IMG/VR virus record: IMGVR_UViG_3300012683_000005
Span: 1-46,890 of that record
Source of the DNA: a virus
DNA: 46,890 nt
Strand: one strand, 5' to 3'
Below, piece by piece: positions 12,586 through 42,450 of the stretch. Position 1 is the stretch's first letter; every line of letters begins with the position of its first letter. A model generated the notes under the pieces. That model worked only from the letters and a program-made list of their open reading frames with translations, was not told where the DNA came from and searched no databases. The position numbers and the translations under genes were made by a program.

Positions 12586-12885
12586 TTGGATTTTGCTGAA
12601 GCCTATTCCCGCGCCGTCGGTTTCCTGCATGCACGCAAGCGCGCGTACTCACTTTGCTTCGGCTCCCCCGTCGGGAACGAAGTGCTCATTGACCTCTCGC
12701 GTTTCTGCCGAGCGGTTGAGACCTGTGTCGTCCCTGGCGACCATGATCGCACACTCGTCCTTGAAGGGCGGCGCGAGGTGTTTTTGCGCATCACCGAACA
12801 CATGAACCTGTCAACCGAGCAGCTCTACGCTCTTTACGACCGCCGTAATATCCAGCAAGCTCCGGTTGCCGAAGATGCAGAGTAG
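12586..12885 (+). CDS. Bbp19-like phage protein, 99 aa
   Basis: It resembles the Bbp19 family named from Bordetella phage BPP-1: LIDLSRFCRAVETCVVPGDH, then RTLVLEGRREVFLRITEHM. The family normally sits beside the portal, as here; its function is not established to my knowledge. The TTG at 12586 is preceded by AGGGAG at suitable distance. The 3' end overlaps the start of the sugar kinase gene by 11 bases, which ties the sugar cassette to the head genes. Confidence 0.8.
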   Translation: MDFAEAYSRAVGFLHARKRAYSLCFGSPVGNEVLIDLSRFCRAVETCVVPGDHDRTLVLEGRREVFLRITEHMNLSTEQLYALYDRRNIQQAPVAEDAE

Positions 12886-13711
12886 CGTTTTCGATCTGAT
12901 CGAATCGGTCAAGGATTTCAAGGTGCTGTTCGTGGGTGACGTGATAATCGATGAATACCATTACGTCAGCTCACTCGGTAAAAGCCCCAAGGAACATTTG
13001 ATTCCGGTGCGGTTCGAGCACAAGGAAGTGTTCGAGGGCGGGGTATTGGCAGCGGCAAAGCATGCCCGCAGTTTTTGCGCTCTCGTTGACATCCACTCTG
13101 TAGGCGCTGGGGTGAGGAAGGTGCGCTACGTTGACCCGCTCTATACGCGGAAATTATTCGAGGTTCACTTCAACGGCCACGGGTTTCCAAAGCGGTCGGT
13201 CGCTGAGGGTTACGATGCGATAGTTGTCGCGGATTTTGGGCATGGAGAGATTCCCGCTCTGCCTGATGGATTTATCGCAGTCAACGCCCAGACCAACTCT
13301 GCCAACATAGGATACAACCTCATCACGAAATACACGCGCGCGGATTACATCGTGATCGACGAGCCGGAAGCGCGCCTCGCCGCCGCTGACCGCGACAGCC
13401 CAATCGAGGAGGTGATCCTGAAACTTGCGAAGGACCGCTGCAATAAATTCGTCGTCACCCATGGCGCTTATGGTGCCGTAGGTTACGACAGCGGCGAGTT
13501 CTACCATGCGTCAGCCTATACCGACCGCATCGTCGATACGATGGGTGCTGGCGACGCTTTCTTTGCAATCACCGCACCCATGGCGAAGCACGGCAGCATG
13601 CAGGATTTGCTCACCATCGGCAATGCTGCCGGAGCAATCAAGACGCAGATCGTCGGGCACCGGGAATCGGTCACCAAGGAGAAATTGGTTGAATTCCTCC
13701 GATCTCACTGA
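12875..13711 (+). CDS. PfkB-family sugar kinase, HldE/RfaE domain I type, 278 aa
   Basis: Predicted ribokinase-fold sugar kinase, closest in pattern to the heptose 7-phosphate kinase domain of HldE (RfaE). Motifs: Gly21-Asp22 in LFVGDVIIDEYHYV, the RfaE-like HLIPVRFEHKEVFEGGVLAA, KVRYVDPLYTRKLFEVHF, and the PfkB signature DTMGAGDAFFA with catalytic Asp227. It lacks the fused adenylyltransferase half of HldE; that activity is encoded separately at 17676-18080. The ATG at 12875 lies inside the Bbp19-like gene; a TTG at 12866 is possible. It is first of a tightly overlapped sugar cassette. Kinase fold is firm; heptose as substrate is inference from motifs and neighbours. Confidence 0.85.
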   Translation: MQSSVFDLIESVKDFKVLFVGDVIIDEYHYVSSLGKSPKEHLIPVRFEHKEVFEGGVLAAAKHARSFCALVDIHSVGAGVRKVRYVDPLYTRKLFEVHFNGHGFPKRSVAEGYDAIVVADFGHGEIPALPDGFIAVNAQTNSANIGYNLITKYTRADYIVIDEPEARLAAADRDSPIEEVILKLAKDRCNKFVVTHGAYGAVGYDSGEFYHASAYTDRIVDTMGAGDAFFAITAPMAKHGSMQDLLTIGNAAGAIKTQIVGHRESVTKEKLVEFLRSH

Positions 13712-14096
13712 GATGGTGCGCGCCGCAAAGCGCGTCTACATCATCGGCAACGGCGGCAGCTACGCGAATGCGATGCACATGTGCAACGATCTTCTAGCGC
13801 GCAACATCAGAGCCTATACGCTCGATCCGGCGACGTTGGTGGCGAATGCCAACGATCACGGCTTCCATAACTCCTTTGCGCGCTGGGTGCTCGTCGTGGG
13901 TGAGCCGGGCGACTTGCTGATCGCGCTCTCGGGCTCCGGCAAGTCGCTCAACATCTTGCTTGCATGCGAAGCGGCCGAGCGTCTGGGAATGACCGTGCAT
14001 AAAATCTTCGGTGCAGAGCGCGGAGAAAACATGCAGCAGGCCGAGGAAGCGCAGATCAAAATAGGGCACGAATTGTGGACGCAGCTAGCCTCATAG
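13689..14096 (+). CDS. SIS-domain isomerase, GmhA-like, 135 aa
   Basis: Predicted sugar-phosphate isomerase. Phosphate-binding loops: YIIGNGGSYANAMH (20-28) and LLIALSGSGKSLNIL, typical of sedoheptulose 7-phosphate isomerase (GmhA), which makes D-glycero-D-manno-heptose 7-phosphate. TLDPATLVANANDHGFHNSF is also GmhA-like. At 135 residues it is shorter than GmhA (about 190), lacking an N-terminal helical part. TTG at 13689 is chosen because AAGGAG lies 7-8 bases upstream; ATG at 13713 is the alternative. A longer upstream extension lies out of frame within the kinase and is rejected. It overlaps the kinase end and the next start. Confidence 0.82.
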   Translation: MNSSDLTEMVRAAKRVYIIGNGGSYANAMHMCNDLLARNIRAYTLDPATLVANANDHGFHNSFARWVLVVGEPGDLLIALSGSGKSLNILLACEAAERLGMTVHKIFGAERGENMQQAEEAQIKIGHELWTQLAS

Positions 14097-14638
14097 CATT
14101 CGAGAACAAGGTCGCCGCGGCGTTCGAGTCGAGAAAGATTCGAGCGCCGATCCATCTTGTCGGCGGGAATGAGGAGCAGCTAATCGAGATTTTTAAAGGG
14201 ATCAAGCGTACCGACTGGGTCCTCTCAACTTGGCGCAGTCACTACCACGCCCTGCTGCACGGTATCCCAGAGAAGCGCGTATTTGACGAAATCCTGGCTG
14301 GGCGCTCGATGATGTTGCATTTCCCGGAGTATCGGTTCATGACGAGCGCGATCATGGGCGGGATGTTATCAATTGCGTGCGGGATCGCCGCCGCGGGTGA
14401 GCGGGTCTGGTGCTTCGTCGGAGATATGGCGGCGTGTTCTGGCGCATTCCATGAGGCTGTTAAATATGCTAGTGGGCATAATCTTCCTGTTGACTTCATG
14501 GTTGAGGACAACGGACTGTCAACCAACACGCCGACAACGAAAACATGGACCGTTGGCGGTTATAAACAAAATGTTCACATACATCACTACGAGCGCACCA
14601 GACCTCACTGCGGCTCCGGGACCTATGTCGCTTTTTGA
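14075..14638 (+). CDS. Thiamine-diphosphate enzyme, E1 alpha-like minimal subunit, 187 aa
   Basis: It resembles the ThDP-binding part of 2-oxoacid dehydrogenase E1 alpha/transketolase N-terminal domains. Motifs in order: IRAPIHLVGGNEEQLIEIFK, WVLSTWRSHYHALLHGIPEK, and the ThDP/Mg site GD-M at 116-118 followed 27 residues later by Asn146 (MVEDNGLSTNTPT). The third residue of the usual GDG is Met. The C-terminus (YERTRPHCGSGTYVAF) matches E1 alpha-like proteins I associate with sugar-nucleotide clusters. It is about half the length of a metabolic E1 alpha. GTG at 14075 overlaps the SIS gene. The cofactor call is strong; the substrate is unknown (a sugar ketol transfer is plausible). Confidence 0.8.
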   Translation: MDAASLIAFENKVAAAFESRKIRAPIHLVGGNEEQLIEIFKGIKRTDWVLSTWRSHYHALLHGIPEKRVFDEILAGRSMMLHFPEYRFMTSAIMGGMLSIACGIAAAGERVWCFVGDMAACSGAFHEAVKYASGHNLPVDFMVEDNGLSTNTPTTKTWTVGGYKQNVHIHHYERTRPHCGSGTYVAF

Positions 14639-15140
14639 CGCCGAAGTCAACAAGTGGATGCGGCGTCTCGCTGAGTTGCCCGAGACGATCTTCGTCGGCC
14701 AGTCTGTCGCTTACGATGGTGCCGCGATCCACGCATCACTCGATGGCGTGCCCATGGAAAAGCGCTTGGAGATGCCGGTCGCAGAGGAATTCCAGATGGG
14801 CTATTGCACTGGGCTTTCCCTTGTCGGGAAGCTCCCGGTGTGTATCTACCCGCGCATGGATTTCATGCTGCTCTGCATGAATCAGCTAGTGAACCACCTT
14901 GACAAACTGATGCTCTATGGGTGGAAACCGAAGGTGATAATCCGCACCACCGTTGGAAAGAAAAAGCCGCTTGACGCCGGTCCACAGCACACGCAGAACT
15001 ACACCGAAGCCTTCCATAAGATGCTGCACACGATCCAAGTGCGCGAGGTGCGCGTGCCGCAGGAAGTAGCATTCGCTTATCAGTTTGCCATCAGCGCGGA
15101 GCGTTCGACGATCATCGTGGAGAACGAATGGAAGCCTTGA
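14625..15140 (+). CDS. Thiamine-diphosphate enzyme, E1 beta-like minimal subunit, 171 aa
   Basis: It matches the pyrimidine-binding half of E1 beta/transketolase: LPETIFVGQSVAYDGAAIHA, EMPVAEEFQMGYCTGLSLVG (with the conserved Glu of the Pyr domain), VCIYPRMDFMLLCMNQLVNH, and KVIIRTTVGKKKPLD. It lacks the transketolase C-terminal domain, so the pair forms only the ThDP core. I chose the ATG at 14625, overlapping the alpha gene by 14 bases; an ORF extension to 14373 is a shadow of alpha, and ATG 14571 is possible. It overlaps the next gene. Together with alpha it should form a heterotetramer (family knowledge). Confidence 0.8.
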   Translation: MSLFDAEVNKWMRRLAELPETIFVGQSVAYDGAAIHASLDGVPMEKRLEMPVAEEFQMGYCTGLSLVGKLPVCIYPRMDFMLLCMNQLVNHLDKLMLYGWKPKVIIRTTVGKKKPLDAGPQHTQNYTEAFHKMLHTIQVREVRVPQEVAFAYQFAISAERSTIIVENEWKP

Positions 15141-15319
15141 GTGTTACCGTTAGATTCGATGAAACTATACCGCCAGAGGCTCAAGGTGTAGCATTGCTCG
15201 AATTCGAGAAACGTCTTAGGGCGCTGACCAAGATGGATGTGCGGGTTTTCAAGGAAAAGATGGGCGACGACCTGAAACGCCGTCGCGAGATGACGCTGGT
15301 TCAAAGGGACAACCTGTGA
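15128..15319 (+). CDS. Small protein of the sugar cassette, 63 aa
   Basis: The ATG at 15128 lies inside the end of the E1 beta gene and the stop overlaps the next GTG start. Sequence MEALSVTVRFDETIPPEAQG, then LRALTKMDVRVFKEKMGDDL with a basic C-terminus. The segment RVFKEKMGDD followed by a Met-Thr-x-x-x-Arg-Asp tail looks conserved-type and may be a partner of the ThDP pair or the radical SAM enzyme. No fold recognised. Confidence 0.65.
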   Translation: MEALSVTVRFDETIPPEAQGVALLEFEKRLRALTKMDVRVFKEKMGDDLKRRREMTLVQRDNL

Positions 15320-16455
15320 GCGCAGCCCTGCCAGAACTCCACGAAAAGATCATCAACCCGAACGAGCTTGAACTCGACGGGACCAAAGTTGGATGGTACC
15401 CGGAACGCATTGCCGCATGGCAGCGCGGAGAGAAGATCGCACCAATCACGATGGACGTAGCCTGGACGCGCAAGTGCAACTACGCTTGCGAATTCTGCTA
15501 TGCCACGATGCAGGCTTCCAAAGGAAAGGAAATAACCCGTGAGATCGCGCTACAGTTTCTTGAGGATGCCGCCGAGATCGGCGTCAAGGGGGTGTCACTT
15601 ATCTCGGATGGCGAGTCTTCGATTGTTCCGTTCTATGCAGAGTCGATTGAGCATGGAGCGAAGCAGGGACTGCAGATTGGAATCGGAACCAACGGAAAAG
15701 TTCTCAAACGCTCAATGCTGGAACGCATACTCCCTCATCTCTCATACCTCCGTTTTAATTTCTCCGGAGGAACCAGGGATGGTTATTCGCGGATTATGGG
15801 CGTCAAGCCGGAGTGGTACGACGTAGTGATCCAGAACGTCCGTGACGCGATGGAGATCAAGCGGCGCGACTCCTTGCCGGTCACGATCAACATGCAACTC
15901 GTATGCGACCCGAAGAACGAATCGGAACTTCTGCCATTCGCCGCACTCGCCGCCAGCATTCGCCCTGATTACGCGATCATCAAGCACTGCGCGGACGACA
16001 TTGACCATACCCTCGGCACCGATTACACGAAATACGCGCTCCTGAACGAGACCTTCGATAAGATCGAGGCGATGGGCGATGCGACATTCAGGGTCATGGT
16101 GAAGCGCGACCGCATGAAAGACGACGGGAAGCGCGATTACGCCAAGTGTTTCGGGCCGCCCTTCATCACGCAGATGTCAGGCAATGGGCTCATCGCCCCG
16201 TGCGGATTCCTCTTCAATGAAAAGTACAAAGCGTTTCACATCGGCAACATATGCGATACTCGCTTCCGTGACTTGTTCCACTCGGATCGCTATTGGGAAG
16301 TCATGCGCTACCTTGCATCCGATGAATTCGATCCACGCTCGCGTTGTGGGCCGAACTGTTTGCAGACGCAGACGAACTCGTTTCTGTTCAAGTACGTGAA
16401 TGGGCAAAAGACTCTGCCCATCGGTAAAGCCCCACATCATCTCGGATTCCTATAG
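15316..16455 (+). CDS. Radical SAM / SPASM enzyme, 379 aa
   Basis: Radical S-adenosylmethionine enzyme: CX3CX2C at Cys54, Cys58, Cys61 (TRKCNYACEFCYATMQ) binds the catalytic 4Fe-4S cluster, and the GGE-like region is seen as LISDGESSIV. The C-terminal about 100 residues carry extra cysteines (YAKCFGPP, APCGFLF, NICDTR, SRCGPNCLQTQ), fitting a SPASM or twitch domain with auxiliary clusters. GTG at 15316 overlaps the preceding stop. SPASM enzymes modify peptides or sugars and alcohols; the setting favours a sugar or glycoprotein step, but the substrate is unknown. Confidence 0.88.
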   Translation: MSAALPELHEKIINPNELELDGTKVGWYPERIAAWQRGEKIAPITMDVAWTRKCNYACEFCYATMQASKGKEITREIALQFLEDAAEIGVKGVSLISDGESSIVPFYAESIEHGAKQGLQIGIGTNGKVLKRSMLERILPHLSYLRFNFSGGTRDGYSRIMGVKPEWYDVVIQNVRDAMEIKRRDSLPVTINMQLVCDPKNESELLPFAALAASIRPDYAIIKHCADDIDHTLGTDYTKYALLNETFDKIEAMGDATFRVMVKRDRMKDDGKRDYAKCFGPPFITQMSGNGLIAPCGFLFNEKYKAFHIGNICDTRFRDLFHSDRYWEVMRYLASDEFDPRSRCGPNCLQTQTNSFLFKYVNGQKTLPIGKAPHHLGFL

Positions 16456-16464
16456 GAGAAATCA

Positions 16465-17304
16465 ATGCCTGATGGCGAACAACAGCAGCAACAGCAGCAA
16501 GCCCCGTGGTATCAGGGCGTAGCAGGCATCGACCAGGAGGTCGTAGGCCACTGGACGAACGCTGGGTGGATCAACAAGAAGCCCGAGGAAATCGCCCTTG
16601 AAGCGACGCGCTCATGGAAGGCGGCAGAGAAGCACGTCGGCGTCCCCTCCGACCAAATCCTCCGCGTCCCGAAGGACATTAAGGACGAGGCAGGTTGGAA
16701 GGCGGTCTGGTCGCGCCTCGGCAAGCCAGCCGAGGCGAAAGACTACGACCTGTCATTGGTAAAGCGCGCAGACGGCACCGCGCTCGATGAGGCAACGGCG
16801 GCTTTTGTGCGCGAGCAGGCGTTCAAGCTGAACATGCCGAAAGATACCGCAGCGGCATTGGCGCAGGAACTTGTCAAGCGCGAGGAAGCGGCTGCATCTG
16901 CGGGAAAGATGGAGCGCGATGCAAAGCTGATCGAGCAGAAGGCCGCGCTCAAGAAAAACTGGGGGCCGAACGAGGCTGCGAATAAGTTCGTCGCCGAGCG
17001 CGCCGCAGCTGCCCTTGGGGTTACGCCGGAAACAGTCGCGGCTCTGGAAGGCGTGATCGGCTATGACAAGATCATGGAGATGTTCCGCTCTATTGGTGAG
17101 AAGATCGGCGAGGACAAGTTCATCCGCAGCGAAGTCCTAGGCGGCAAGGGTGGTCCCATGACGCGCGAGCAGGCGGTGGCGAAGAAAGCCGATCTGATGT
17201 CGGACGCTGTGTGGAAAGACGCCTATCTCAAAGGCGATCAGGCGAAGTTGCGCGAGATGATGGCGTTGAATACCATCATCAGTTCCGGGCAGGTTGCCGT
17301 ATAG
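16465..17304 (+). CDS. Capsid scaffold protein, 279 aa
   Basis: Predicted internal scaffold for procapsid assembly. It starts after TAGGAGAAATCA with a Gln run (MPDGEQQQQQQQAPWYQG), then a segment with WKAVWSRLGKPAEAKDYDL, typical of phage scaffold-like proteins, then long charged helices (AAALAQELVKREEAAASAGK, ERDAKLIEQKAALKKNWG) and an end rich in Met/Lys. Position before the capsid gene agrees. It separates the two parts of the sugar cassette, so these genes share the late transcript. Confidence 0.82.
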   Translation: MPDGEQQQQQQQAPWYQGVAGIDQEVVGHWTNAGWINKKPEEIALEATRSWKAAEKHVGVPSDQILRVPKDIKDEAGWKAVWSRLGKPAEAKDYDLSLVKRADGTALDEATAAFVREQAFKLNMPKDTAAALAQELVKREEAAASAGKMERDAKLIEQKAALKKNWGPNEAANKFVAERAAAALGVTPETVAALEGVIGYDKIMEMFRSIGEKIGEDKFIRSEVLGGKGGPMTREQAVAKKADLMSDAVWKDAYLKGDQAKLREMMALNTIISSGQVAV

Positions 17305-17307
17305 CCC

Positions 17308-17679
17308 TTGCACTACAAGTTCCACGAATCTGCCGACGTATTCGACCAGGGCCGCTCATGGCAGTGGCGGACGATCTACGCATCGATGGGAACCACTCCG
17401 GGTGCGATTGTCATGGCGATGCTCGCAAAGGTGCCCAAGAACGGCCCAGCTTACGGGCAGACCTGCGACATTCTCACCAACGGGATCGTCATCACTCCGC
17501 ATCGCATCGCTGGAAAATGGACTGAGCAGCGGCCTATCGGTAGCATCATCGCGGTGCGCGACAGTATTCGGCGCCTTGCGGATCACTGCAAGCTGACCGA
17601 CAGGGAGCGCGAAGCATTGTTTGAAGAATTGCGCAAGTGGATTCGCAAGGATTACCGGGCGGTTTCGACCATAGAATGA
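17308..17679 (+). CDS. Conserved-type phage protein, 123 aa
   Basis: TTG start at 17308, 3 bases after the scaffold stop. Sequence: MHYKFHESADVFDQGRSWQW, a Gly/Ala-rich middle, then a helical basic end (LTDREREALFEELRKWIRKD). No domain recognised. Its stop overlaps the nucleotidyltransferase start (ATGA). Confidence 0.65.
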   Translation: MHYKFHESADVFDQGRSWQWRTIYASMGTTPGAIVMAMLAKVPKNGPAYGQTCDILTNGIVITPHRIAGKWTEQRPIGSIIAVRDSIRRLADHCKLTDREREALFEELRKWIRKDYRAVSTIE

Positions 17680-18080
17680 GGGTGATTCTCGTCCACGGCA
17701 CGTTTGATCTGCTGCATCTTGGTCACGTCCGTCTATTCAAGGAAGCGGCGAAGCTCGGTCGCGTGGTCGTATCGATCACCGCGGACAAATATGTCACCAA
17801 GCGTAAAACAGTCTTCAGCCAGGACGAGCGCGCAGAGATGATCCGCGAGTGTCGCTCCGTGTCAGAAGTGAGAATCGTGAACGATGCAACCGGGATACCT
17901 GCGATCATGTCCGTTCGTCCGAACATTTACGTTAAGGGCGGCGATTACGGGAGATCGGCTACGGCGGCTCTGCTGGAGGAGAAAAAAGCGGTTGAGAAGA
18001 TTGGCGGCAGCCTGCGCATTATCGAGATGGAACATGAATGGCATTCGAGCGCGCTACTCTCTGGCAGGGCACTCGCATGA
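17676..18080 (+). CDS. Nucleotidyltransferase, HldE/RfaE domain II type, 134 aa
   Basis: Cytidylyltransferase-fold enzyme that couples a sugar phosphate to a nucleotide. Motifs: HGTFDLLHLGHVRLF with HLGH at 14-17, TADKYVTKRKTVFSQDERAE, and PNIYVKGGDYGRSAT, where VKGGDY is characteristic of the HldE adenylyltransferase domain (ADP-heptose synthesis). ISSTEx-type signature is replaced by SSALLSGRALA at the C-terminus. With the kinase at 12875-13711 it makes a split HldE. ATG at 17676 overlaps the preceding stop. Nucleotide (ATP or CTP) and sugar are inference. Confidence 0.87.
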   Translation: MRVILVHGTFDLLHLGHVRLFKEAAKLGRVVVSITADKYVTKRKTVFSQDERAEMIRECRSVSEVRIVNDATGIPAIMSVRPNIYVKGGDYGRSATAALLEEKKAVEKIGGSLRIIEMEHEWHSSALLSGRALA

Positions 18081-18289
18081 CCAATATGCGCAGCAAATCC
18101 TGCTATTGCAAGACCTGCAAGGGAACGTCCTACGTCGTGGCGAATCTTGAGGCAGGTACGATCAAAAGCGTGACCGTGACGCCGCTTTGCCACTGGCCCG
18201 CGAAGTGCCCGGAGGAATTCGTGCGTGGCGTATTCGACCGGCAATTCGGATCGAAGATCATCATTCCGCACCCAGGGGCGCCGTTGTGA
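18077..18289 (+). CDS. Small Cys-containing protein, 70 aa
   Basis: Lies between the nucleotidyltransferase and the glycosyltransferase with overlaps on both sides (ATGA, GTGA). Cysteines: SKSCYCKTCKGTSYVV and CHWPAKCPEEF, possibly a zinc site. No family recognised. Its place suggests a role with the GT41 enzyme (inference). Confidence 0.6.
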   Translation: MTNMRSKSCYCKTCKGTSYVVANLEAGTIKSVTVTPLCHWPAKCPEEFVRGVFDRQFGSKIIIPHPGAPL

Positions 18290-20064
18290 ATAAGAAAGTC
18301 TTGCTTGCGATGTACGCCCTACAGAAGGAAAAACGCTTTGCTGAAATGGAGGAAACGGCGCGGGCCATGACGAAGAAGCGCCCGCGCGATCCGCTTGCTT
18401 GGAGGGCGCTCGGCGTGGCGCTCAAGCTCCAAGGAAAGAATGGACTTGAAGCTTTCCAGCGCGTCGTAAAATTGATCCCGAAGAATGCTGTTTCTCACTT
18501 CCATCTCGGGGTGCAGCTGGAAGGACTCGGGCGCACGCGCGAGGCCATCGCCGAGTACAACAAGACAATCGAGCTGGACCCGAAGTCAGCGGAGGCTTAC
18601 AACAATCTTGGCAACGCCTTGAAAGCGATCATCAAACCCTACGACGCCATGGTCTGCCACCAGAAGGCGATTCACCTAAATCCTGCTTTATCCCAAGGAT
18701 ACATGAACTTAGGTGGTGATTTGCTGGGGATGGGACAGCACGGTAAGGCGGTGGAGTGTTACAAAAAGGTGCTCGAACTCGACCCTGATTTTGTGGAAGC
18801 CTACAGCAATCTGATCTTCGCGCAGGACTTCATGGCGATATTGGACGCGCGCACCCACATCCACGCGCGCCGCGACTGGGCCGAGAACTACGTCGATCAT
18901 CTGTTGCCGGGAGAGCCGGAGAACGATAACGATCCAGACCCCGAGAGGAAACTTCGTATCGGCTACGTCGGAGGGGATTTCAAGGAACATTCTGCTGCGA
19001 GGGTATGGGGATCGATGGTCACCGGATACGACCGCTCGCAGTTCGAGGTCTACTGCTACAACAACAATACGACCAAGGGCGACTCCTACACGAAGCGTTT
19101 CATGGACGCCGCTACTCAATGGCGTGAGATCGGTGCGATGCACGATCTGGATGTCGTGAAGTTGATCCGCGAGGACAAAATAGACATCCTCGTCGATCTT
19201 GCCGGGCATTCCGCCATGAATCGATTGTCGGTATTCGCCTTCCATGCTGCGCCAGTTCAGGTACACGCTTGGGGATACGCGACTGGTACAGGCATGAAGA
19301 AGATGGACTACTTCTTCGCGTGCCAAGGAATCGTGGTCCCTCACGAACGCGAGTTCTTCACGGAGGAAATTATCGATTTGCCATGCGCGGCGGGTTCATA
19401 TTTTCCAGAACCATTCCCGGATGTGAACGAGTTGCCGTTCATCGAAAACCAGATCATCACCTTCGGTTCCCTGAACCGAATGCACAAGGCAACCGATGAA
19501 TGCTATCGGACTTGGGTCGAGGTACTGCGCCGCGTGCCGAACAGCCGGTTCCTGCTGAAAGCGGGGGAACTCACTGATGAAGCCTCTCGCGCGGCTGTGC
19601 TATGGAATTTCACCCGTTCAGGCATCGATGCCGACAGGATCAAGATGCTCGGGGCGACAAAGTGGCATCACCACGTAGGCGCTTACAACCTGATCGACAT
19701 TGCCCTTGACCCGTTCCCACATGGCGGCGGGGTAACTTGCATGGAGGGGCTGATGATGGGCGTACCAGCGGTGACGTTACGCTGGCCTACCTTGGTTGGG
19801 CGTATCTCGGCCGCAATTCAGACCTGCGTCGGGATACCGGACTGGTGCGCCGATACGGCAGACGATTACATCAACATTGCAGTTAAGAAGGCGGCGGATA
19901 TAGAGGGTCTGAAACGCCTGCGCACAGCCCTCCGCGGCATGTTTCTGGCATCACCAATCGGCAACAGCAAAGTTTATGTCGATGCCGTAGAGACTCGCTA
20001 CCGCGAGGTCTGGAACCGCTGGTGCGCAAAGAAAGTGCTTGACACGCGGAGAATAGCAGCGTAG
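18286..20064 (+). CDS. TPR + O-GlcNAc-transferase-like (GT41/SPINDLY) glycosyltransferase, 592 aa
   Basis: Predicted protein O-glycosyltransferase. Residues about 5-185 hold tetratricopeptide repeats (for example AEAYNNLGNALKAIIKPYDA, EAYSNL), which bind protein acceptors. The GT41 GT-B core starts near 222 (KLRIGYVGGDFKEHSAARVW) with the catalytic-type His234, DKIDILVDLAGHS, VQVHAWGYATGTGMKKMDYF, and the Lys401 region NRMHKATDECY matching the nucleotide-contact Lys of OGT. The end DPFPHGGGVTCMEGLMMGVP is the donor-binding loop. GTG at 18286 overlaps the preceding stop. It sits directly before the capsid gene. Family knowledge: GT41 enzymes transfer GlcNAc, fucose or other sugars to Ser/Thr. 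The donor here is probably made by the neighbouring cassette (inference). Confidence 0.9.
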   Translation: MNKKVLLAMYALQKEKRFAEMEETARAMTKKRPRDPLAWRALGVALKLQGKNGLEAFQRVVKLIPKNAVSHFHLGVQLEGLGRTREAIAEYNKTIELDPKSAEAYNNLGNALKAIIKPYDAMVCHQKAIHLNPALSQGYMNLGGDLLGMGQHGKAVECYKKVLELDPDFVEAYSNLIFAQDFMAILDARTHIHARRDWAENYVDHLLPGEPENDNDPDPERKLRIGYVGGDFKEHSAARVWGSMVTGYDRSQFEVYCYNNNTTKGDSYTKRFMDAATQWREIGAMHDLDVVKLIREDKIDILVDLAGHSAMNRLSVFAFHAAPVQVHAWGYATGTGMKKMDYFFACQGIVVPHEREFFTEEIIDLPCAAGSYFPEPFPDVNELPFIENQIITFGSLNRMHKATDECYRTWVEVLRRVPNSRFLLKAGELTDEASRAAVLWNFTRSGIDADRIKMLGATKWHHHVGAYNLIDIALDPFPHGGGVTCMEGLMMGVPAVTLRWPTLVGRISAAIQTCVGIPDWCADTADDYINIAVKKAADIEGLKRLRTALRGMFLASPIGNSKVYVDAVETRYREVWNRWCAKKVLDTRRIAA

Positions 20065-34036: not shown

Positions 34037-35581
34037 ATGGTCGACAATGTAATCGTCACACCGAGCGCAAGCTACACCGTAGCTGCTGAGGATATCGGCG
34101 CCAGCGTAGAGGTCCAGCGCGTCAAGATAGTTCTCGGCACCGTCGATGTCGATGGCGGGAATGTCGGAACAACGAACCCGATGCCGATCAGTGGTACGGT
34201 CGCCGTGCCAGCCGGACTCTCGGTATCAGCGCAAGTCAGCGGAACGGTAACGGTTGCTGCTGGCTTATCAGTATCCGCCGTAGTTTCAGGTACGGTAACT
34301 GCCGCTGTTCCTGCCGGGCTATCAGTGTCTGCTGTTGTAAGCGGCACAGTGACGGCGGTTGTGACGGGTGCGGTAAGTATTTCTGCCATGCCCGCAGTCT
34401 CAATTTCAGTGAGCGCCGTGCTCGGGACAGTGGTAACGGTTCTAGGAACTGTCGCTGTCAATGTCGTTGCGGGTGGGGCAGCCCCAGGAACTACAGCGGC
34501 TACGCAATCTGCGATCAGCGGTCAAGTAGTGTGGCTTGCGCCGACGCAGACTGTTACCGCAACGGTGAATACTATTGCTGCCGGATTCTCTGTCCAGGCG
34601 CTAGTTACTGGACCAGTAAGCATCTCGGCAATGCCAGCTGTGTCAATCTCCGTCTCGGCCGCCTTGGGAACGGTGATAACGATCCTCGGAACCCAAGTCG
34701 TGTCAGTGGTTCCCGGTGTGTCGGTGAACGCACTGGTGACAGGCGTTGTAAGCGTATCCGTTCTCCCAGCGGTATCCATTTCGGTGTCGGCAGCACTTGG
34801 AACAGTCATCACGATACTCGGCACGCAAGTTGTCAGTGTGGTTCCGGGTCTTTCAGTGTCGGCACAAATTTCTGGCGTAGTCAGTGTATCGGTCCTACCC
34901 GCTGTTTCGATATCGGTTAGCGCGATACTAGGAACAGTAGTAACCGTTCTTGGCACGGTATTGGTTTCGCAGGCCGGACTAGTTTTCACGACCGCCATTC
35001 CGACAGTCACAGCAACCGGGCCTATCTTCTGGCTTGCCAATACTGTGACAGTCACGGTGACGGCGACGGTGACTGGATCGCTCATCATCTCCGGCATTGC
35101 TCCGGCGACAACCGCGTTGGTGTCTGGCAATACTGGGATGCCGGTATGGCCTGGGACGCCACCATATGCGGCTGTTCTAATCGCTGTTACTTCAACCGCA
35201 TTGGCAAGTGGGGCTGCTACGCTGTTGATGACCGTATGGACTGGTGCTGCTTTAGCAACCGCTGCGGCTAGTTTTTATGTAGTGCCAGCTGGGAAACAGT
35301 TGCGCGTTCTATCGTTGGGATTGGTGATGCACAACTCGATCACCACGACGCCAGTTCTGGCCTTCGCTGCCGTGTTACAAACAGCAGGCGCACCAGCCAT
35401 TTCGGCTACTACTCCACAAGCAATACGCGTTGCTGCAGCTATAGCAACGACAGGTATATTTGCCTCTGGCATCGCTCAAGGGCAGCAAGATATTGCGGCA
35501 GGCGTATCAGTCGGTATGCTGGCCTCCATGAACACCACTGGTAATATAGATTCAATCGTGGCCGTGGGATATTTATTCTAG
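34037..35581 (+). CDS. Val/Ser/Ala/Thr repeat protein, fibre-like, 514 aa
   Basis: The N-terminal about 50 residues are a normal domain. Residues about 55-115 repeat (P)AGLSVSA-x-VSGTVT four times. Residues about 115-330 repeat a longer unit (PAVSISVSA-x-LGTV-x-T-x-LGT, then VVPGLSVSA-type) four or five times. A C-terminal domain (about 360-514) follows, which may trimerise or bind. The repeats are very regular in protein sequence but differ in codons, so selection acts on the peptide. Such regular strand repeats suggest a beta-helix or fibre shaft. Ser is spaced regularly next to Val/Ile, a good acceptor context for O-glycosylation; the second GT41 gene lies 313 bases downstream of its stop. 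Confidence 0.75.
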   Translation: MVDNVIVTPSASYTVAAEDIGASVEVQRVKIVLGTVDVDGGNVGTTNPMPISGTVAVPAGLSVSAQVSGTVTVAAGLSVSAVVSGTVTAAVPAGLSVSAVVSGTVTAVVTGAVSISAMPAVSISVSAVLGTVVTVLGTVAVNVVAGGAAPGTTAATQSAISGQVVWLAPTQTVTATVNTIAAGFSVQALVTGPVSISAMPAVSISVSAALGTVITILGTQVVSVVPGVSVNALVTGVVSVSVLPAVSISVSAALGTVITILGTQVVSVVPGLSVSAQISGVVSVSVLPAVSISVSAILGTVVTVLGTVLVSQAGLVFTTAIPTVTATGPIFWLANTVTVTVTATVTGSLIISGIAPATTALVSGNTGMPVWPGTPPYAAVLIAVTSTALASGAATLLMTVWTGAALATAAASFYVVPAGKQLRVLSLGLVMHNSITTTPVLAFAAVLQTAGAPAISATTPQAIRVAAAIATTGIFASGIAQGQQDIAAGVSVGMLASMNTTGNIDSIVAVGYLF

Positions 35582-35589
35582 GAACTATC

Positions 35590-35895
35590 ATGCCGTGGAC
35601 AACAGAAGGAAGGAAAGTCAATCCCCTCTCTGGCGCTCTTCTAGCCGATACTGGGCCACTCAGCCCAGGCGGTGCCATGAATTTTGTAGTAATTGGTTCA
35701 TCGACCGTTGTTGGCTTTGTCGCTCTACAACTCAGGGATTCTGCCAATCAGAATACGGTCACAGACCATTACATTAACTTGAGCGATCCTATCCATATGA
35801 AATTCGAGAATATGTCCTTCGGTGAAGGACAACGATTTAGAATCGTTGTTGATCTTGCAATCGTCGGCTCCATTCAAGCGGGGATACTTTACTGA
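35590..35895 (+). CDS. Small beta-rich protein, 101 aa
   Basis: Strands such as MNFVVIGSSTVVGFVALQLR and FRIVVDLAIVGSIQAGILY suggest a small beta-sandwich. It lies between the repeat fibre and the second GT41 gene with a one-base overlap to the latter (TGATG). Function unknown; a fibre cap or lectin-like domain is possible. Confidence 0.65.
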   Translation: MPWTTEGRKVNPLSGALLADTGPLSPGGAMNFVVIGSSTVVGFVALQLRDSANQNTVTDHYINLSDPIHMKFENMSFGEGQRFRIVVDLAIVGSIQAGILY

Positions 35896-37568
35896 TGAGC
35901 CAGCCTTACATCATCGTTCCGCCATCAGGCTCAGATCAGGCAGACGAATGGGTCAAGCTCGGCGTTAATGCACAAGTCGAAGGGCGCCTCCCGCAAGCGC
36001 AGCAGCACTACCAGCAGGCTTTGCGCCTTGATCCGCGCCACGCGATTGCCACGCAGAATCTTGCCATCGTATTCGCGCAGTCCAGTCTCATCAACGAGGG
36101 ACTACTCACAATCGAGCGTGCGGCCATGATGGATGGCGTGCATGCAGTCATTCAGCGCAACTGGGCACTGATGGCTCTTGAGGCAGATCAGATAGACGCA
36201 GCCCTTGCTGCTGGACACAGGGGCGTCGAGATGAAGCCCAACGCAGAGACTCGGCTTGCCTTGGCAATGGTGCTCTCAACTGCCGGTCGTCCGCAGGAAG
36301 CCATACCGCTCTACAACGACATGCTGCGCGAGGACCCTAAACATCCTTCAGCCGGGCCGAACGCCTGCTTCGTGCAGACGCTTACGAACGCCACGCCGAA
36401 GGAACTCTTTGAGCAAAGGAAGAAATGGTACGACGCGAACCGATATACTGGGACGGTCGATCCGCATCGTAATGCCAAGACCGAGCGCACGCTGCGGATA
36501 GGCTATGTCGGTGGTGATTTCAAATGTCACAGTGCGGCGATGATTTTCGGGAACGTTCTCCTGCACCACAGCAAGGACTTCGAGATATACCTGTATGCGA
36601 GCCTTCCGTGCGACGCTGACAAGGACGCACAGACGAAAAAATACAAATCAATCGGCACCTGGCGTGACATCGAGAAGCTGACCGATGAGCAGGCCGCGGA
36701 ACAGATCAGAGCCGATAAGATCGATATCCTGGTTGACTTGGCTGGGCACACGAACGGTGGTCGCCTAACACTTTTCACGCGGAAGCCTGCTCCGATCCAA
36801 TGCACGGGCTGGGGCTTCGCTCACGGCACAGGCTGTTCCGAGATCGATTACTTCTTCGCAGACCCTATCGCTGTTCCTGTTGAGGAGCGCGAGTTCTACG
36901 CGGAGAGGATATGGGACCTACCCTGCATTGTGACCTATGACTCGCCGATTGATTACAACCTCTCGGCAAAGTCAATGCTGCCGTACCACAAGAACGGGTA
37001 CATTACTTTCGGCTCCTACGCTCGCTACGAGAAGCTTTCTGACGAATGCCTCGCCACGTTCGCCGAGATCATGCGCCGCGTGCCGGATGCTCGTCTAGAG
37101 TTCAAGGATCACGGTTTCAAGCGGCCGTATTCGATCAAGCGCGTCCTGTCTGCCATGCAGGATGTCACGCCAGAGCGGCTGCTCTTTTCTATCGCCACCA
37201 GCCACCCGGAGCACATGCAGACCTATCAACAGGCTGACCTGATCCTAGACCCGTTCCCGCATACCGGCGGAGTGGTCGGGATGGAGCAACTCTACATGGG
37301 CGTGCCGATGGTGACGCTCTACGGCACTCAGGCGTCCGGGCGCTCGTCCAGTTCTGTGCTGACTGCTATGGGACATGGAGACTGGATCGCAAAGACGCGC
37401 GAGGAATATGTCGAGAAGGCTGTAGCGATGGCAAACGACATCCCAATGCTCACGAAAGCACGCAAGACGCTTCGAGATGAACTGCTTGCATCGCCGGTGG
37501 TGAAAGACTACGCTCTCGCGGTCGAAGCCGCCTACAAGGAGATGTGGCGTGCATGGATCAGTAAATGA
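35895..37568 (+). CDS. Second TPR + GT41 glycosyltransferase, 557 aa
   Basis: Predicted protein O-glycosyltransferase, paralogous to 18286-20064. TPR-like helices occupy about residues 12-165 (AEGRLPQAQQHYQQALRLDP-type: VEGRLPQAQQHYQQALRLDP, MVLSTAGRPQEAIPLYNDML). The GT41 core has RIGYVGGDFKCHSAAMIF with catalytic-type His212, DKIDILVDLAGHTNGGRL, IQCTGWGFAHGTGCSEIDYF, Lys380 (ARYEKLSDEC), and DPFPHTGGVVGMEQLYMGVP. It differs clearly from the first copy outside motifs. It sits among fibre genes, so its likely substrate is a tail or fibre protein (inference). Start overlaps the preceding stop. Confidence 0.9.
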   Translation: MSQPYIIVPPSGSDQADEWVKLGVNAQVEGRLPQAQQHYQQALRLDPRHAIATQNLAIVFAQSSLINEGLLTIERAAMMDGVHAVIQRNWALMALEADQIDAALAAGHRGVEMKPNAETRLALAMVLSTAGRPQEAIPLYNDMLREDPKHPSAGPNACFVQTLTNATPKELFEQRKKWYDANRYTGTVDPHRNAKTERTLRIGYVGGDFKCHSAAMIFGNVLLHHSKDFEIYLYASLPCDADKDAQTKKYKSIGTWRDIEKLTDEQAAEQIRADKIDILVDLAGHTNGGRLTLFTRKPAPIQCTGWGFAHGTGCSEIDYFFADPIAVPVEEREFYAERIWDLPCIVTYDSPIDYNLSAKSMLPYHKNGYITFGSYARYEKLSDECLATFAEIMRRVPDARLEFKDHGFKRPYSIKRVLSAMQDVTPERLLFSIATSHPEHMQTYQQADLILDPFPHTGGVVGMEQLYMGVPMVTLYGTQASGRSSSSVLTAMGHGDWIAKTREEYVEKAVAMANDIPMLTKARKTLRDELLASPVVKDYALAVEAAYKEMWRAWISK

Positions 37569-41798: not shown

Positions 41799-42019
41799 TA
41801 AAGCTCGTTGACGACGTAAAATCCGCATGGCGATGGTTCTCAACATGGCTGATAGCCGTGTCCGGAACGCTCATTATCGCCTACGAGAATTTCCCGCAGC
41901 TCAAGGAGTATGTGCCGGACAAGTGGTTCCATACCATCATGGGGATCATGCTCGCGCTGATCTTCCTCGGACGCATCGTCAAGCAGGCTCCTCCCGTCCC
42001 TCCTGCGGTCCAGCCCTGA
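41795..42019 (+). CDS. Holin, two transmembrane segments, 74 aa
   Basis: Two hydrophobic helices (FSTWLIAVSGTLIIAY and TIMGIMLALIFLGRIV) with a short loop NFPQLKEYVPDKWF and a Pro-rich basic tail, as in small phage holins. It lies immediately after the endolysin with overlaps both sides. Confidence 0.82.
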   Translation: MIKLVDDVKSAWRWFSTWLIAVSGTLIIAYENFPQLKEYVPDKWFHTIMGIMLALIFLGRIVKQAPPVPPAVQP

Positions 42020-42450
42020 TGGATCTGGCCGGCCTAGGCTCTCTCTTTGATTTCGGCGGGAAGCTGATTGATAGGCTTATTCCCGACCCCACCAAGAAGG
42101 CAGAAGCGGCCCTAGAACTGGCGAAACTCCAGCAATCCGGGGACCTAGCCAAACTCGCCGCAGAAACGGACCTACTCAAGGGGCAACTCGACATCAACAA
42201 GATCGAGGCTGCTTCGACCAATTGGTTCGTGGCTGGATGGAGACCTTGCATCGGCTGGATATGCGGTTTGGCCTTGGGTTATGTGGCTGTAATCGACCCC
42301 ATAGCACGCTTCATTGCCCTCACGATGGGCTACAAGGGCCTATTTCCGGTGATTGATACCTCCATCACCATGCAAGTGCTCCTAGGGCTTCTAGGGCTCG
42401 GAGCCATGAGAACCGTGGAGAAGGTCAAGGGAGCAGAAGGTAACCGATGA
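42019..42450 (+). CDS. Phage holin-like (3TM family type), 143 aa
   Basis: N-terminal amphipathic part (GKLIDRLIPDPTKKAEAALE, then LAKLQQSGDLAKLAAETDLL), then WRPCIGWICGLALGYVAVID and FPVIDTSITMQVLLGLLGLG as membrane helices. This arrangement matches the 3TM phage holin family. A second holin-type gene beside the 74-aa one may modulate timing. Confidence 0.85.
   Translation: MDLAGLGSLFDFGGKLIDRLIPDPTKKAEAALELAKLQQSGDLAKLAAETDLLKGQLDINKIEAASTNWFVAGWRPCIGWICGLALGYVAVIDPIARFIALTMGYKGLFPVIDTSITMQVLLGLLGLGAMRTVEKVKGAEGNR

Follow-up and report, generated by a model that had tools for sequence, protein, structure and literature searches.

A recurrent phage cassette of predicted sugar-donor enzymes, linked to GT41 glycosyltransferases that may decorate virion proteins

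GmhA, the HldE kinase and the HldE adenylyltransferase carry out steps of ADP-heptose synthesis, and glycosyltransferase family 41 (GT41) is a family of protein glycosyltransferases, of which SPINDLY is a protein O-fucosyltransferase. To our knowledge, few cases of virion protein glycosylation in phages have been described. Mycobacteriophages are a known case, with glycans on proteins of both capsid and tail (Freeman et al. 2023, as cited in PMC11256854 and PMC12619734). Here we analyse the IMG/VR virus record IMGVR_UViG_3300012683_000005, the whole of which (46,890 bases) is the window, that is, the complete stretch of DNA studied. Its late region carries a cassette of genes for predicted sugar-donor enzymes, including the two subunits of a thiamine diphosphate (ThDP) enzyme and a radical S-adenosylmethionine (SAM)/SPASM enzyme (rSAM), together with two transferases that combine tetratricopeptide repeats (TPR) with a GT41 domain. 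Our reading, to which we give a probability of about 60%, is that the phage makes an unusual nucleoside diphosphate (NDP)-sugar by means of this mobile cassette, and that the GT41 enzymes O-link the sugar to Ser/Thr residues of virion proteins during assembly.

The late region runs on the + strand only, from 8555 to about 39,300, in the order small and large terminase, a head-tail adaptor in the portal position (phrog_332), the cassette genes, the major capsid protein and the tail genes. All cassette genes are on the + strand, with stops and starts that overlap or abut; those for the kinase, the SIS protein, ThDP alpha, ThDP beta, a small protein (sm) and rSAM are contiguous over 12875-16455, and are followed by two head-region genes and then by the nucleotidyltransferase, a small Cys protein and the first TPR-GT41:

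12875..13711, + strand: PfkB-family kinase, HldE domain I-like; ATG at 12875, TTG at 12866 possible; PF00294 56.7 bits; TIGR02198 54.8 bits (HldE kinase equivalog cutoff 345); GAGD motif
13713..14096, + strand: short GmhA-like SIS isomerase, 127 residues; SIS_2 41.6 bits; TIGR00441 gmhA 74.7 bits (equivalog cutoff 209)
14075..14638, + strand: ThDP alpha subunit, E1_dh type, shortened, 187 residues; PF00676 54.1 bits; N-terminal half of phrog_34187
14625..15140, + strand: ThDP beta subunit, pyrimidine-binding domain only, 171 residues; PF02779 26.6 bits; C-terminal half of phrog_34187
15128..15319, + strand: sm, 63 residues, encoded upstream of rSAM; shares homology with the C-terminal end of a bacterial partner of rSAM
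15316..16455, + strand: rSAM; PF04055, PF13186; CxxxCxxC; modelled with AlphaFold2
17676..18080, + strand: nucleotidyltransferase, HldE domain II/HldC-like; PF01467 65.5 bits; TIGR02199 83.3 bits (HldE adenylyltransferase equivalog cutoff 181.5); HxGH, KGGDY
18077..18289, + strand: small Cys-containing protein, kept beside GT41a; relatives in L012 and L094-L098
18286..20064, + strand: GT41a, with TPR and a GT41 catalytic domain; precedes the major capsid gene; PF13844 148 bits; best PDB match SPINDLY
35895..37568, + strand: GT41b, second TPR-GT41; PF13844 149 bits; 34% identical to GT41a

Pfam, PHROG and NCBIfam searches alike support these family names, and the catalytic motifs are unbroken across the cassette (GAGD; GNGGS; GDx..EDN; CxxxCxxC; HxGH and KGGDY; DFxxHS and LDPFPHGGG). 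Family searches, intact motifs and overlaps on the + strand thus bear out the initial annotation, which had proposed a late-operon set of sugar-donor enzymes joined to a TPR-GT41; its inventory of transferases was right about GT41a and overlooked GT41b.

The same gene set recurs in other viruses. Searches started from ThDP alpha, sm and rSAM found 234 viral stretches with relatives, 14 viral loci and 62 viral loci, respectively, in records that are metagenomic and in many cases only fragments. When the rSAM loci were collapsed at 90% identity 54 distinct ones remained, and within 9 kb of rSAM the commonest cassette partners were sm and the ThDP enzyme (49 loci each), followed by the nucleotidyltransferase (43), the kinase (41) and the SIS gene (40), whereas 75 control ThDP loci without rSAM had sm in none, the kinase in 7 and the SIS gene in 4. 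The combination first recognised in this record therefore does co-occur in other phages. Gene order is shuffled among the dozens of divergent phages that carry the cassette, and selection on its genes is purifying: comparisons with the nearest relatives that allowed dS to be calculated gave dN/dS of 0.02-0.21, with rSAM lowest (0.02-0.03) and GT41a at 0.05, both below the capsid (0.08) and portal (0.10) genes, these ratios being rough as synonymous sites are near saturation. Since the cassette recurs in shuffled order in divergent phages and its genes are under such selection, the set is not a chance grouping. Among named phages there was no DNA match to the cassette.

Both transferases are members of GT41, with a TPR array and Glyco_transf_41 scores that compare with a curated cutoff of 25 bits, and the catalytic His (DFxxHS), aligned Lys and donor-binding LDPFPHGGG align with SPINDLY; because the O-fucosyltransferase SPINDLY is the nearest solved relative of GT41a, we leave its donor sugar open. 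Full-length GT41 was present in 11 of 48 rSAM viral records versus 0 of 48 ThDP-only records (Fisher P 0.0005), and rSAM in 13 of 32 GT41 records, or in 13 of the 18 that are at least 20 kb. Three head lineages also have GT41 genes close to the one for the major capsid protein: they adjoin it in the lineage of the window (phrog_3437), stand between protease and capsid gene (L118, L120) or upstream of the capsid gene (L117) in HK97-type heads, with the protease side alone seen in the HK97-type L114, and are near a phrog_283 capsid gene in L115. This enrichment with rSAM, together with the position by capsid genes, upholds the earlier claim that the donor cassette is linked to a protein O-glycosyltransferase gene. 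As GT41 is a protein glycosyltransferase family placed by capsid genes, and no thymidylate-synthase homologue was found in the record, it is highly improbable that the sugar is instead put on phage DNA for restriction evasion, a use for which the precedent is that DNA-decorating phage glycosyltransferases are known (as cited in PMC12619734).

Gene position likewise suggests that the sugar would be attached to virion proteins, and predicts three candidate acceptors, listed here with the two head-region genes that follow rSAM:

16465..17304, + strand: scaffold-position head gene in a PHROG of unknown function; phrog_3742 77.8 bits
17308..17679, + strand: conserved phage protein p8, present in relatives L002, L003 and L012
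20225..21157, + strand: major capsid protein, candidate acceptor; phrog_3437 166 bits
21167..21820, + strand: Ser/Thr-rich protein and candidate acceptor, encoded after the major capsid protein both here and in relatives; no Pfam family
34037..35581, + strand: q514, repeat protein rich in Ser, Thr and Val; candidate acceptor of GT41b, with which it also occurs in other phages

The scaffold-position gene thus lies inside the interval as the initial annotation had it, while the capsid gene, which it had also counted within, sits just downstream. GT41b belongs to a separate clade (support 100/100) whose members, that of the window included, are near q514. This long repeat protein has almost no Arg, a Ser+Thr content of 24% in the window and 23-35% in relatives, and a highly variable C-terminal alignment. 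Within the 9 kb limit q514 was found in 12 of the 54 rSAM loci versus 0 of the 75 controls, the window's own q514 lying farther away and outside the 12. Named phages had neither full-length GT41 nor q514. One record (L125, L237) has two GT41b copies among cassette genes and q514. In two other cassette phages (L088:8081-10571 and L090:11342-14237) a TPR protein without a GT41 domain stands beside a GT2 glycosyltransferase, possibly as an alternative transferase pair. Elsewhere in the window, a GTA_holin_3TM protein (41827-42450) is encoded beside a phage lysozyme (41346-41798).

The best-matching families of the kinase, the SIS protein and the nucleotidyltransferase are heptose families, all matched far below the NCBIfam equivalog cutoffs given above. 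The SIS protein is missing the N-terminal part of GmhA and has phosphoheptose isomerases as its top PDB matches, and the nucleotidyltransferase is similar to solved HldC-type enzymes. Neither the GmhB phosphatase nor HldD or another NAD-epimerase had a match anywhere in the record, in agreement with the initial annotation. These resemblances, and the lack of GmhB and epimerase, would fit a plain ADP-heptose pathway in which host GmhB and HldD complete the synthesis and GT41 puts ordinary heptose on proteins. We consider this quite unlikely: the scores are far beneath the cutoffs, related bacterial cassettes have aminotransferases and epimerases beside them, and the ThDP, rSAM and sm genes, its most constant partners, are left unexplained, as we know of no role for them in ADP-heptose synthesis. 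What survives of the proposed heptose-like donor is a linked sugar-donor cassette with heptose-family resemblance; with scores below cutoff and no GmhB or HldD the identity of the sugar as heptose is not established, and, as judged from sequence, the label denotes family resemblance only.

The rSAM protein is a member of the radical SAM/SPASM group, with Radical_SAM (PF04055, 47.5 bits) and SPASM (PF13186, 22.5 bits) both above cutoff, a CxxxCxxC motif formed by Cys 54, 58 and 61, and C-terminal Cys residues. The solved folds closest to its AlphaFold2 model (predicted local distance difference test, pLDDT, 88) are DesII (E about 1e-15) and BlsE, whose substrates are sugar nucleotides or nucleosides, and for this reason a sugar is the favoured substrate of the modelled enzyme. 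SPASM enzymes include peptide maturases, and SkfB, SuiB and PqqE are in the same fold list; as a small protein sits before rSAM, the two could form a peptide- or protein-modifying pair separate from the sugar genes, similar to those that mature ribosomally synthesised and post-translationally modified peptides (RiPPs). We regard this as improbable, given that DesII and BlsE are the top folds, that rSAM is constantly linked with kinase, SIS, nucleotidyltransferase and ThDP genes, and that sm does not resemble a precursor peptide. It matches the last ~50 residues of a bacterial rSAM partner family of ~380 residues (or two pieces), which has no Pfam match, is mostly encoded directly upstream of rSAM and was found in 61 of 80 bacterial rSAM loci. 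In a model of the partner (pLDDT 89) the middle domain is IscU/SufU-like, the matches shown being nearly all IscU/SufU scaffolds with modest E-values. As its counterpart is the C-terminal end of such an IscU-like-domain partner, sm is best read as the remaining C-terminal segment of an rSAM partner and not as a peptide substrate. Viperin-type (pVip) defence was rejected as an identity for rSAM, of which only residues 50-149, the radical SAM core, match (43 bits versus an NCBIfam cutoff of 180).

The two ThDP proteins carry E1-type motifs, GDM..EDN in alpha and PVAEE in beta, the activating Glu being assigned by analogy, and the Transket_pyr score of beta is slightly below the cutoff of 27. Both match the single fused family phrog_34187, and the initial annotation had called them split halves; other cassette phages and bacteria as a rule encode alpha and beta separately, so this is the ordinary two-subunit arrangement, and a broken gene is ruled out. 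The phage alpha subunit has 187 residues versus 334 in a bacterial relative. Among the 54 rSAM loci, 31 had an E1-type enzyme, 16 a full-length ALS/POX-type enzyme (as in L088, L090, L091 and L092) and none had both, a mutual exclusion with P about 1e-8 before any correction for relatedness. Since the two types replace each other and never co-occur, a ThDP step seems to be needed in the cassette and either type seems able to perform it, a pattern suggestive of a carboligation in which a 2-oxo acid is decarboxylated.

At least 265 bacterial genome stretches encode relatives of rSAM with ~50% identity, and 80 of these stretches (L126-L205) were used for all neighbourhood counts. Near rSAM in these 80 were kinases (57), ThDP alpha (52), ThDP beta (45) and SIS genes (36), and epimerases and DegT aminotransferases were also found nearby. 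In the one bacterial kinase tested (L145) the kinase is fused to a nucleotidyltransferase domain. A contig from a Rhizobiales metagenome-assembled genome (L126, CAIZGQ010000073.1) has an rSAM 66% identical to that of the window, with sm, kinase, SIS and ThDP genes, and is a possible clue to the host.

In the mechanism that we propose, a ThDP carboligase would use a 2-oxo acid and an aldose phosphate to build or extend a ketose phosphate, which the SIS protein would convert to an aldose phosphate, and the kinase would phosphorylate C1; a host phosphatase would then take off the distal phosphate and the HldE-II-like enzyme would form the NDP-sugar. With the help of sm, rSAM may edit the sugar through a radical reaction such as epimerisation or dehydration, and GT41a would act on proteins of the head and GT41b on a tail or fibre protein rich in Ser/Thr.

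Several observations weigh against O-glycosylation of virion proteins with a cassette-made sugar. No sugar-enzyme match attains its equivalog cutoff, and the RiPP maturases SkfB and SuiB rank closely behind the leading folds of rSAM. Next to their bacterial relatives, the SIS, ThDP and sm proteins of the phage are greatly shortened, and their activity is therefore not assured. The Ser/Thr richness of fibres may have structural reasons. Finally, 37 of the 48 rSAM records are without full-length GT41, so the sugar may have other users or transferases. The last point also favours an alternative that we hold to be unlikely while still credible, in which the sugar alters the host surface (lipopolysaccharide or capsule, for example as a superinfection block) or feeds other transferases, GT41 being separate; the bacterial versions of the cassette resemble surface-sugar clusters, and in the cyanophages S-SM2 and P-TIM68 related ThDP, kinase, nucleotidyltransferase and SIS genes form part of larger glycan clusters that also encode other glycosyltransferases. 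In the window, however, the cassette is interleaved with head genes and the two GT41s are the sole glycosyltransferases recognised, and across records GT41 is associated with rSAM. We thus continue to prefer O-linkage to virion proteins.

More tentatively, and with less confidence than in that preference, we suggest a widespread, undescribed pathway in which an NDP-sugar not known from any host, ThDP-extended and rSAM-edited, would be O-linked by paired GT41 enzymes to capsid and Ser/Thr-rich fibre proteins, with rSAM depending on a very small adaptor that would be a truncated form of a bacterial IscU-like partner. A donor-synthesis cassette is present in dozens of divergent phages; its rSAM and GT41 genes are better conserved than that of the capsid protein, and it singles out particular candidate acceptors. 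If this is true, many environmental phages bear a sugar coat that would matter for adsorption, immune recognition and the evasion of defences; this coat on virus particles, hitherto hidden, becomes directly testable, and two uncharacterised enzyme parts, the pair of rSAM and adaptor and the minimal ThDP carboligase, become assayable.

In its likeness to known systems the locus is composite. With the ADP-heptose pathway (GmhA, HldE, GmhB, HldD) it shares GmhA-like, HldE-I-like and HldE-II-like families found together, but its scores are all sub-equivalog, and it is without GmhB and HldD and adds the ThDP enzyme, rSAM and sm. DesII of the desosamine pair DesI/DesII is the best fold match of rSAM, and bacterial rSAM loci have DegT aminotransferases near, yet rSAM and DesII are only 15% identical and a DegT gene is near rSAM in 1 of the 54 viral loci. 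In S-SM2 and P-TIM68, ThDP enzyme, carbohydrate kinase, nucleotidyltransferase and phosphoheptose isomerase genes also occur together; there, in contrast, the ThDP enzyme is fused, extra epimerases and other glycosyltransferases are present and the genes lie outside the head operon, and profile searches of the stretches compared found no canonical rSAM, sm or GT41. Like SPINDLY and OGT, the phage GT41s combine TPR with a GT41 domain and retain the His and Lys motifs, but their TPR array is short, and they are phage-borne, with genes that lie near capsid genes. The open-licence literature held no description of a phage GT41 or of this cassette. As in mycobacteriophages, the glycosyltransferases are phage-encoded; there glycans are on capsid and tail proteins, whereas here the system is known from genes alone, its transferases are TPR-GT41 enzymes and the phage also bears donor-synthesis genes, ThDP and radical SAM enzymes among them. 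Virion glycosylation itself is already known, and it is this predicted form of it, with the cassette and GT41, that we rate as new.

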